In this document: piece after piece, positions 51,143 through 53,388 of the stretch
How positions within the stretch are numbered: position 1 is the stretch's first letter
Layout: every line of letters begins with the position of its first letter
Assembly: GCA_012862575.1 (NCBI GenBank)
Contig: BLSF01000008.1
Location: 682,001-746,000 of the forward strand
Reading direction: 5' to 3'
DNA length: 64,000 bases
Origin: Parietichytrium sp. I65-24A
Lineage: Eukaryota > Sar > Bigyra > Thraustochytrida > Thraustochytriidae
Made by a program: the position numbers and the translations under genes
The notes under the pieces: model-generated
What the model saw: only the letters and a program-made list of their open reading frames with translations
Told to the model about the DNA's origin: nothing
Database searches by the model: none

Positions 51143-51569
51143 GACTGACAGTCGACTGGACTCACGTGCGAAGAACAACTCCGGCGGTAACACAAAACAA
51201 TGCGAGCGACGACTGCCACGATACCAGCACCATCCGTCGTCACCGATACCGATACCGATACCGATATCGATACCGTTGCCTGCCAAAGTCGTCACATCTT
51301 GTTGTTCTTCTTTTCCTATTCTCCACTCAGCTCTGAAACACACGTTGACTTTCTTCCTTGCTTCCGTCTTTCGCAGCTCTCTCGCAGCGCCGTCAGTCCC
51401 CACTGTCCCCACTGTCCCCACCGCGCACCCCGTTCCGCACAGCTGCAAACGTCCCTTTCCAACTACTGCGTCCCAGGAGTCCCAGGAGTCCAAGGAGTTT
51501 CAGGAGTCCCAAAGTGTCCCAAAGCGTCCCAAAGCGTCCCAAAGTGTCCTCGGAAGAGCGGCGGGAAGC
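51143..51569. other. Intergenic region rich in simple repeats
   Basis: It contains a CCGATA hexanucleotide run at 51240-51285, a CCCCACTGT run near 51396-51420, a CCCAGGAGT stutter at 51471-51510 and a GTCCCAAAGC 10-base array at 51511-51547. The last ends about 22 bases before the next ATG. The frame of the next gene is open through all of this but has no ATG. Confidence 0.7.
51511..51547. repeat. GTCCCAAAGC 10-bp array
   Basis: About four copies of a 10-base unit directly upstream of the deaminase-Nudix start, presumably 5' UTR. Confidence 0.9.
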
Positions 51570-52937
51570 ATGGTGCCGAGCCGCGCGGGACAGCTGGCAG
51601 CGCTGCAGCACGCGCGTCTTGCGTACGCGCTGGGCCACGTGCCGGTGGGCGCGTCCGTAGTGTCCTCGGGCGGGCGGCTGGTGTCCTCGGCGCGCAACCA
51701 CGGCCCTCTCCACGCCGAGGTCGCCGCCCTGCTCCGCGCCAGGACGCCCCGCGCCCATCTCCGCGCGGAGGACACCGGGAACCCGACCCCGGAGCGCGGG
51801 GAGCGCGGGAACCGGCGGCGAGGCGGGTTCCTGGCGGCCGGCGCGAAGCTCTTCGCCACGCTGGAACCCTGCGACGCGTGCCTCGCCAGCGCGCTCAACG
51901 ACCGCGTCGCGGCGGTGTACTTTGCCGCAAGGAGCCCCAGATGCGGCGCCTTCCGCCTTCCGCAGATTCCGCAGCCCGACAGAAAGGACGCGGAACACGC
52001 GGAACATGCGGAACACGCGGAGAACGCACTGGGCGAGGACACGTCACTGGGTGCGCGCATGCTCAGCGAGAGCCCGGCGTACGGGCGCGACAGGCGACCC
52101 GAAATCAGATGCACTGCCGGCGATGATGCGGGAGAGAGTGCGCGAGACGAGAGCGGAAGCGAGGAGGCCGAAGCCATTGCGCGAGAGAGTGCCAGCCTCA
52201 TGCGCAGCTTCTTCGCCCGTCGCCGCGACAAGGACGGTCCGGTCAAGGGAGAAGTCGGAAAGATGGACAAGGCGGAGAAGCACGAGAAGCACGGGCAACG
52301 CGCAAGAGAATCGCAGGCAGTGATCATTGCGCAGGCGCTGGTGCTGTCCAAGGACCGGGGACATGTGCTGCTGAGGCGGCACGTGGACGGCGCATACGTG
52401 GGAAGGTACACGGGATTTCTGGATGTGGTGGACTCGGTGGACGTGTTGGAAACAGCGGACATGGCTGACGACGGGGCCGCCAATTCGGACATCGGCGATA
52501 GCTTTAGCGACCACGTGCCGGTGCCAGCCAAGTCCGTTTTGCAAGACATCGTGGCCAGGCAGAGCGCGGGCAAGGTATGCGATGGAGCATGGGAGAACAT
52601 GCGGCACCTCGGCACCCTCGAATTCCTGGAGGTGGGCAAGGACGCTGGTGTGGAAACGAGGCCGAGCCTAGAGTTCCAGTTCGTGGTGGAGACCAGCCTC
52701 TCGCCAGGGCCAACTGGCGACGATTCGCTTGAGTGGTTCCCGAGGAGTGAGCTCCCATTCCACGCTATGCCGGCAGACGACCAGTTCTGGTACAACGACG
52801 TTTTGCAGCTCTCGGACGTCCAGGCCAGCCCATACCCAGCCACGTCATTCGATCACTTGAGTGGCTATTTTGTGTTTGACGGAAAGGAGCTCTTGTGCTG
52901 GGAGACAAAGCTGGGCCGTTGGGCCGAGTGGATTTAG
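51570..52937 (+). CDS. Cytidine-deaminase-like / MTH1-like Nudix fusion protein
   Basis: 455 residues from the only in-frame ATG (51570); the open frame upstream is simple repeat. The N-terminal domain (1-120) has the zinc motifs of the cytidine deaminase superfamily: His48-Ala-Glu50 and Pro-Cys101-Asp-Ala-Cys104 (LEPCDACLASALNDRV). A basic insert of about 35 residues separates them. Base-, nucleotide- or tRNA-deaminase activity cannot be told apart. A charged linker (125-245) follows. Residues about 250-455 resemble MTH1/NUDT1: VLLRRH, GAYVGRYTGFLDVV, FQFVVETS, then LEWFPRSELPFHAMPADDQFWY and HLSGYFVFDGKELLCWETKL. The last parts match the MTH1 C-terminus well. However, the Nudix box (G..5 E..7 REUXEEXGU) is not present: the region reads AKSVLQDIVARQSAG, without the metal-binding Glu residues. 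The Nudix fold is therefore probably non-catalytic, perhaps a nucleotide-binding partner of the deaminase. GC content is high. Confidence 0.85.
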   Translation: MVPSRAGQLAALQHARLAYALGHVPVGASVVSSGGRLVSSARNHGPLHAEVAALLRARTPRAHLRAEDTGNPTPERGERGNRRRGGFLAAGAKLFATLEPCDACLASALNDRVAAVYFAARSPRCGAFRLPQIPQPDRKDAEHAEHAEHAENALGEDTSLGARMLSESPAYGRDRRPEIRCTAGDDAGESARDESGSEEAEAIARESASLMRSFFARRRDKDGPVKGEVGKMDKAEKHEKHGQRARESQAVIIAQALVLSKDRGHVLLRRHVDGAYVGRYTGFLDVVDSVDVLETADMADDGAANSDIGDSFSDHVPVPAKSVLQDIVARQSAGKVCDGAWENMRHLGTLEFLEVGKDAGVETRPSLEFQFVVETSLSPGPTGDDSLEWFPRSELPFHAMPADDQFWYNDVLQLSDVQASPYPATSFDHLSGYFVFDGKELLCWETKLGRWAEWI

Positions 52938-53388
52938 TTCCTGACAGCATGCAAATGCGGGTGCTTTTGTGCCTTTGTTCCTTTCTCTCAACTCGGGCTC
53001 TTCTTGCTGCTCTCCTCTCGTGTATTGCAAATCACTGCAAACGCAGATGCTCCATTTTCGCCGAAGGCTCAGCTCTGCGTCATATTTATGTTGTATTCAC
53101 AATGGGTACTTGATGTGCACATTCGTTTATTTGAAGTGCTTGATCATCACGATAGCAAAAATGAAAAATAGATGGGCAAACTTGTGTTGCTGAACTGATC
53201 GTTTAACCCTTGAACCCAATCGCCAACCCGCGACTTGCGCAAGGAGGTATCTGACAAATAACGAGAGAGAAAGAGAGAGAGAGAGAACGAGCTCACAAGA
53301 CACGACACACAAAGATGAAGATCTTAAGTAGTAAAGCAAAACAAATACAAGTTCAAGACCGAGAAATAAAAATCCATTCGACTCTCCA
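52938..53388. other. Convergent intergenic region
   Basis: This lies between converging genes and holds both 3' ends. A GAGAGAAAGAGAGAGAGAG purine run is at 53261-53285. Nothing else is seen. Confidence 0.6.

Follow-up and report, generated by a model that had tools for sequence, protein, structure and literature searches.

This locus raises the question of whether a single gene encodes a deaminase joined to a relative of MTH1 that has lost its catalytic Nudix box and, if so, what such a protein would do. The window, by which we mean the whole stretch of 64,000 nucleotides analyzed here, spans C8:682001-746000 of a 42.5-Mb eukaryotic genome. The 455-residue fusion frame was found as originally predicted; it starts at the first ATG of its own frame, and a search of the 42.5 Mb returned a single match (C8:733570-734934, 100%).

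Positions 51570-52937, plus strand: 455-residue open reading frame made of a TadA-like deaminase, a linker and an MTH1-derived C-terminal domain (open reading frame list, genome match).

Over 20 windows of 60 codons, the third-position G+C of the frame ranged from 0.70 to 0.95, and the second-position G+C was below that of both other positions in all 20. The first 120 codons had the highest third-position G+C (0.91) when compared to the 11 other open reading frames of at least 400 residues in the window. A foreign origin of the 5' third was nevertheless rejected, since a similar trend, with the first 120 codons richer in third-position G+C, was seen in 9 of these 11. Because the linker would have remained open by chance with a probability of 0.056, its openness is weak evidence for a fusion. 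The chief argument is instead that two conserved domains lie within a single uninterrupted frame, and judged from the sequence we regard the deaminase and the box-less MTH1 relative as a genuine, if unusual, fusion. No GTRAG donor was found in the linker or in the insertion at the box, although the gene may include a coding exon further upstream or introns with signals of another kind.

A decaying, non-functional gene or an assembly or annotation artefact would fit with the fact that the fusion is known from a single genome, with the chance openness of the linker and with a low-score tandem repeat at the expected start of the box (TGGACGTGG, 52420-52450). The 455 open codons with their consistently low second-position G+C, the intact deaminase motifs and the lack of a GTRAG donor in the linker and box insertion argue against this explanation, which we consider quite improbable. 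The leader of the gene (51242-51549) carries short tandem arrays, including ACCGAT, GTCCCCACT, GTCCCAGGA and GTCCCAAAGC.

We then analyzed the N-terminal half.

Positions 51570-52235, plus strand: TadA/ADAT2-like deaminase domain, residues 1-222 (Pfam, AF2, Foldseek).
Positions 51711-51719, plus strand: HAE, residues 48-50; His48 is a zinc ligand and Glu50 the proton shuttle (the same in all 11 TadA rows).
Positions 51867-51881, plus strand: PCDAC, residues 100-104, with Cys101 and Cys104 as zinc ligands (unchanged across the 11 TadA rows).
Positions 52158-52232, plus strand: predicted helix 197-221, which may correspond to the C-terminal helix of TadA (AF2, alignment).

The zinc site of the CDA superfamily (HAE and PCxxC) was present and intact, as had been claimed. 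The protein scored 33.2 bits against PF00383 (cut-off, 25), and Pfam returned only deaminase families for the whole fusion protein. The TadA rows came from a search seeded with the fusion deaminase aligned with two other deaminases of this genome; 11 of the 45 candidate stretches in viral contigs were confirmed, all of them TadA-like by eye, and 11 were used in the fusion alignment and 10 in the TadA profile. N43, H48, A49, E50, C101 and C104 were invariant in the fusion and all 11 rows. According to the available part of PMC8216470, the wobble-adenosine pocket and zinc positions of TadA/ADAT2 are N42, H53, A54, E55, C83 and C86; N43 of the fusion corresponds to the pocket residue N42, and the other invariant residues match pocket or zinc positions given there. 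A PDB sequence search gave 14 matches up to an E value of 1, all to deaminases, most of them named tRNA deaminases.

The AF2 model built with the TadA rows had block means of 82 to 96 (residues 1-60), 91 to 94 (91-120) and 91 (201-220), and of 43 to 74 in the insertions, of which one lies at about residues 60-88 and a long one at about 128-195. The domain had been thought to end at about residue 125, but the predicted helix 197-221 places its end probably at about 222. F215 and R219 of this helix were invariant in the TadA alignment, and its pLDDT of 91 over residues 201-220 was obtained with an alignment containing TadA rows. By sequence alone the helix was marginal, scoring 6.0 bits when the best of 2000 shuffles reached 5.3. 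According to PMC8216470, TadA needs its long C-terminal helix to bind the anticodon stem-loop. When the deaminase model was searched with Foldseek, ranks 1 to 15 were TadA chains, some of them engineered (E values of 5.3e-9 to 2.2e-7), and rank 16 was ADAT2/ADAT3. The tRNA-deaminase-like fold together with the predicted C-terminal helix points to an RNA substrate.

Overall, the domain resembles TadA/ADAT2 in its predicted fold, in HAE, PCxxC and the pocket asparagine and in the predicted C-terminal helix with its FFxRRR motif. It differs in its score on the NCBIfam TadA equivalog (21.5 bits for a cut-off of 150), in a pre-HAE loop that falls six residues short of the length seen in 10 of the 11 TadA rows, in four residues absent after PCxxC, in the two insertions, in an acid-free N terminus and in the extra C-terminal domain. 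On the TadA profile, the fusion reached 51.3 bits, compared to 51.5 for ADAT3, 99.0 for a gene at C99 and 147.3 for a two-domain gene at C9. Since the latter two outscored the fusion, the profile does not single it out as the TadA of this genome, and since both look guanine-deaminase-like by eye, it does not tell the two types of enzyme apart. In the deaminase tree, only 1 of 14 inner branches was well supported, leaving the placement of the fusion unsettled, and its branch was very long (length 4). The deaminase is thus best described as TadA-like and not as a proven TadA.

These same observations bear on whether the protein could be a divergent small-molecule deaminase of the guanine, guanosine or cytosine type and no RNA editor. 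Guanosine and yeast cytosine deaminases were also in the Foldseek list, and the short pre-HAE loop, the long branch and the higher scores of the C99 and C9 genes would all be compatible with this. The leading TadA and ADAT2/ADAT3 ranks, albeit from a model built with TadA rows, and the predicted C-terminal helix speak against it, and we consider a small-molecule deaminase rather unlikely.

To place the C-terminal half, we relied on profiles.

Positions 52302-52934, plus strand: MTH1-derived domain covering residues 245-455, dead as an enzyme judging by its sequence (profile, AF2, VIA-align).

Pfam gave no family match in residues 245-455, and the MTH1 matches of phmmer against the PDB were weak (E values of 1.6 to 4.3, residues 375-414). 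In its own genome, the domain matched, besides itself, only an MTH1 gene at C42 (E value of 0.06, 36% over 45 residues). A bacterial and archaeal search queried with MTH1, and not with the fusion, yielded 36 MTH1 loci. Of these, 32 were extracted (L061, L063, L068 and L069 being outside this set) and 27 entered the MTH1 profile, after L060, L062, L065, L066 and L067, which were cut short in reading or had no box region, had been left out; L038 was trimmed by 92 residues. Together with the genome's own MTH1, the profile held 28 sequences, while 12 viral MTH1 loci were left out of it; 22 of the 36 loci were used in the structure alignment.

On this profile, the C-terminal domain scored 27.9 bits, compared to 8.0 bits for the best of 4000 shuffles and 4.8 bits for the best of the 171 other open reading frames of at least 100 residues in the window. 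The support was located in residues 342-418. Residues 245-330, which include GRYTGF of the originally predicted MTH1-like frame, reached only 0.6 bits alone on the whole profile. For this first half of the domain, the placement comes from the alignment and not from the score.

We also removed the genome's own MTH1 from the profile and cut the profile after the Nudix box. For comparison, we used the 22 genomic Nudix matches, 20 of which had loci (MTH1 and 19 others). On the post-box half, the domain scored 28.1 to 29.8 bits and the whole fusion protein 26.2 bits, whereas the MTH1 gene reached 84.5 bits and none of the 19 other Nudix frames exceeded 6.6 bits. On the box half, the fusion scored only -4.3 to 0.4 bits, versus 86.4 bits for the MTH1 gene and 5.9 to 32.3 bits for 17 of the 19 other frames. 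On the uncut profile, three active-looking Nudix frames (28.7 to 31.9 bits) exceeded the fusion domain (27.1 bits) owing to their boxes. The contrast between the halves indicates that the box half has decayed while the MTH1-specific half (PF..M..DD..W) was retained, and by these scores the C-terminal domain is a descendant of MTH1.

The predicted fold agrees with this ancestry. AF2 with 22 MTH1 rows gave a mean pLDDT of 71.5 and a pTM of 0.67 for residues 245-455. The best 50 of 611 Foldseek matches of this model were all wild-type or mutant MTH1 (best E value, 1.7e-11), and VIA-align gave a Z score of 15.8 to MTH1 chain 5ant_C (rmsd of 2.9 over 150 residues), compared to about 11 for MutY chains. 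Structure prediction thus returned the expected Nudix fold, but an alignment of MTH1 rows biases AF2 toward it. In a full-length AF2 model without MTH1 rows, the block means of the C-terminal domain were 26 to 42, so the fold assignment rests on homology. A joint alignment of the fusion with both TadA and MTH1 rows put the latter in the wrong place and was discarded.

We next analyzed the residues of the box and of the base pocket.

Positions 52416-52574, plus strand: Nudix box site, with GGK, RE and EE replaced and about 28 extra residues inserted ahead of the helix (alignment, six-frame scan).
Positions 52776-52790, plus strand: DDQFW, in which Asp403, Asp404 and Trp407 correspond to MTH1 Asp119, Asp120 and Trp123 (alignment).

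For the mapping, we used human MTH1 catalytic residue numbers, and Trp123 as a pocket residue. The human columns were mapped via one bacterial row, and placement beside the 28-residue insertion is uncertain. With this proviso, Ala299, Asp300, Gln331 and Ser332 stand at columns that are R, E, E and E in all 22 MTH1 rows, that is, in place of Arg51-Glu52 and Glu55-Glu56, and Gly37-Lys38 is replaced by Asp285-Val286. The expected loss of the metal-site glutamates was therefore seen at the RE and EE columns; the Glu100 position, however, holds the acidic Asp384, so that one acidic ligand place is kept. The absence of the box itself was borne out by the box half-profile and by a six-frame pattern scan of 51570-53200, which gave no REUXEE-like match. 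A looser front-half pattern matched at residues 161-174 and 230-247, both within the linker and both lacking EE. The idea that the box is restored through a hidden intron or a frameshift was rejected on the basis of the six-frame scan and of the lack of a GTRAG donor in the linker and insertion. With the metal ligands lost, hydrolysis of modified purine nucleoside triphosphates by the C-terminal domain is predicted to be absent.

In the alignment, Phe27, Asn33, Phe74 and Trp117 of MTH1 are replaced by Ala275, Thr281, Glu354 and Pro401, respectively, and the Met81 position falls on Pro365 in a gap-dependent manner. Phe72 (Phe352), Asp119-Asp120 (Asp403-Asp404), Trp123 (Trp407) and Phe139 (Phe436) are kept. 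The Asp119 position is D in 18 of the 22 MTH1 rows, and the Asp120 and Trp123 positions are D and W in all 22. The human pocket residue names are those of the available part of PMC7152754, where Asp119 and Asp120 are reported to bind 8-oxo-dGTP, 2-oxo-dATP and O6-methyl-dGMP, and Asp119 to bind N6-methyl-dAMP. Trp117, Asn33 and Phe27 thus appear to be lost and the base pocket to be partly retained. Compared to MTH1 (NUDT1), the 8-oxo-dGTP pyrophosphohydrolase, the fusion shares the C-terminal half, DD..W, the Phe72 and Phe139 positions and the predicted fold, but it has neither the Nudix box GX5EX7REUXEEXGU nor GGK, has Trp117, Asn33 and Phe27 replaced, carries the insertion of about 28 residues and is attached to a deaminase.

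At the expected Nudix loop GGK..GE we observed a weak 9-bp tandem repeat (TGGACGTGG, 52420-52450; score of 34, 72% matches), as if slippage had replaced the loop. Separately, in L066 (2001-2300), a bacterial MTH1-like open reading frame from a metagenome-assembled genome, GGKV is followed directly by GEPIETEEM; the box is thus deleted, which could be an assembly error.

What the sequence itself shows is a single fused frame, a deaminase with intact motifs, descent of the C-terminal domain from MTH1, a lost box and a partly retained base pocket. From there, we infer that the gene is expressed as protein, that this protein acts on adenosine in RNA and that binding takes place through its C-terminal domain. 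One gene would give one protein with two functional halves. The N-terminal half would be a zinc-dependent deaminase of the TadA/ADAT2 type, most likely converting adenosine to inosine in RNA. The C-terminal MTH1 descendant, having lost the metal-binding Nudix box, should not hydrolyze nucleotides and would keep a base, a stretch of RNA or else a partner subunit close to the deaminase. To adenosine deamination on RNA with such a non-catalytic base- or RNA-binding module we assign about an even chance; the alternatives overlap with it and with one another.

The original prediction had proposed that the dead Nudix domain recognizes substrate for the deamination of damaged nucleotides. Substrate recognition is the natural reading of a box-less MTH1 half, but a damaged free nucleotide as the substrate was not supported. 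In that explanation, the MTH1 domain would capture oxidized or methylated purine nucleotides and pass them to the deaminase, a small-molecule activity that overlaps with the one considered above. Asp403/Asp404 match the binders of modified nucleotides Asp119/Asp120 (available part of PMC7152754), and the Phe72 and Phe139 positions are retained. On the other hand, Trp117, which stacks on the base, Asn33 and Phe27 are replaced, making MTH1-style binding of 8-oxo-dGTP doubtful, the deaminase fold is nearest to tRNA deaminases, and an MTH1 with an intact box is found elsewhere in the genome. We therefore hold nucleotide capture to be unlikely.

Alternatively, the MTH1-derived domain could be purely structural or serve dimerization, with DD..W kept for folding and the deaminase being an ordinary divergent one. 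The invariance of the Asp120 and Trp123 positions in the 22 MTH1 rows is compatible with a structural role, and several pocket residues are gone. However, Asp119/Asp120 are described as base-binding (available part of PMC7152754), and the box has decayed while the other half is still recognizable, so that a purely structural role seems of low probability to us. The loss of the cutting site with part of the base-binding half kept suggests a dead enzyme turned reader.

Two known systems provide comparisons. CFIm25 (NUDT21) is a dead Nudix protein that binds RNA. It resembles the fusion as a dead Nudix fold acting as a nucleic-acid reader and differs in having no deaminase and in belonging to another Nudix subfamily. 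MutY recognizes 8-oxoG with its Nudix-fold domain. MutY/MUTYH follows the same principle as the fusion, in that an enzyme that modifies bases carries a Nudix-fold domain with a box unlike the hydrolase motif (PMC5389931). Unlike in the fusion, its catalytic domain is a glycosylase and not a deaminase, and the C-terminal domain of the fusion matches the MTH1 profile whereas the genome's own MutY does not. A derivation of the C-terminal domain from MutY was rejected because this MutY, a separate gene at C10, was not reported against the whole or either half of the MTH1 profile with filters off and E values up to 1000. A MutY-like mode of action, in which an oxidized or methylated purine of either RNA or DNA is read by the dead MTH1 domain and a nearby or opposite adenosine is deaminated by the TadA-like domain, appears very unlikely; if it held, damage would be marked or corrected by deamination and not by base removal.

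The domain survey of Iyer et al. (2011) is reportedly the main one for deaminases. Among titles and abstract openings in the literature we found no deaminase-Nudix fusion, although a prior mention is possible, and the word deaminase is absent from the available main text of the Nudix clan survey (PMC5389931). Non-catalytic Nudix modules are known in some cases, and the fusion would add one that descends from MTH1 itself and is attached to an enzyme that edits bases.

We also asked what related genes the genome contains. Nine other PF00383 matches lie at seven places, including, by motif, ADAT2 (C29, two exons) and ADAT3 (C34), and a separate MTH1 gene with an intact box lies at C42. With MTH1, ADAT2, ADAT3 and MutY intact elsewhere (by motif), the fusion is an additional protein, and the possibilities that it is the genome's ADAT2 or its sole MTH1 were rejected, both being present elsewhere. 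No fusion relatives were confirmed in viral contigs. An anti-phage or phage family was rejected as well, since PADLOC gave no match and PHROG only dCMP deaminase matches (E values of 0.12 to 0.14).

Several other domain combinations were seen in this genome. L003 (G000:C9:149453-150427) is a tandem double deaminase in a 557-residue open frame, in which the second domain has TSE and PCVMS instead of HAE and PCxxC and is probably dead. L006 (G000:C39:390946-391317) is a deaminase domain with an MEPCSVRLSG...PC site inside a 2266-residue open frame. By eye, L027 (G000:C5:231695-232114) joins in a single frame an isopentenyl diphosphate isomerase-like domain and, after it, a polyprenyl synthase-like domain, and in L016 (G000:C63:87240-87587) a Nudix domain comes after a dephospho-CoA kinase-like domain, again within one frame.

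Finally, we considered where an RNA substrate might lie.

Positions 51570-51716, plus strand: first 49 residues without Asp or Glu, a possible mitochondrial targeting feature (inferred).

The 47 residues before HAE contain no acidic residue, compared to 4 to 10 in all 11 TadA rows, and there are none in the first 49 residues, compared to 3 to 11 in the 11 other open reading frames of at least 400 residues in the window. The fusion has no presequence ahead of the deaminase helix. The mitochondrial contig (C141, 39,303 bp) carries 21 tRNA genes, all on the same strand, and tRNA-Arg(ACG), with the anticodon loop CUACGGA (by eye), is the only A34 tRNA among the 21 found. The same number of tRNA genes, also confined to one strand, is present in the mitochondrion of Schizochytrium sp. 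TIO1101, where TAA, TGA or TTA serves as the stop codon (PMC7799850). In 16 mitochondrial genes, chosen and named by eye from open frames except for cox1, which was found by family, TTA made up 4 of 4327 codons, versus 270 for TTG. On these mitochondrial grounds, we take the organism to be most likely a thraustochytrid. Their 112 CGN codons were 59 CGT, 18 CGC, 25 CGA and 10 CGG. A tRNA-Arg with inosine 34 decodes CGU, CGC and CGA (available part of PMC3711424).

The fusion could accordingly be imagined as the mitochondrial enzyme making inosine 34 in tRNA-Arg(ACG), an assignment that we regard as doubtful. If it were true, it would name the inosine-forming enzyme for a mitochondrion with a single A34 tRNA, and an organelle deaminase would have gained a second binding domain, somewhat like ADAT3 for the cytosolic enzyme. 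Since the C99 and C9 genes fit the TadA profile better, the mitochondrial target is only a guess. Moreover, the 16 genes contain 36 AGA/AGG codons for which no matching tRNA was detected among the 21, which suggests tRNA import. The AGR codons and the 10 CGG codons, unreadable by I34, imply another tRNA source, and this argues against the mitochondrial idea; ADAT2/3 could serve mitochondria instead, as might other deaminases encoded in the genome.

On the same mitochondrial contig (L098-L101, G000:C141), two 189-residue open reading frames have identical first 70 residues, and open reading frames of 398 and 183 residues, nad7 by eye, likewise have their first 70 residues in common. These pairs with common starts suggest duplicated segments.
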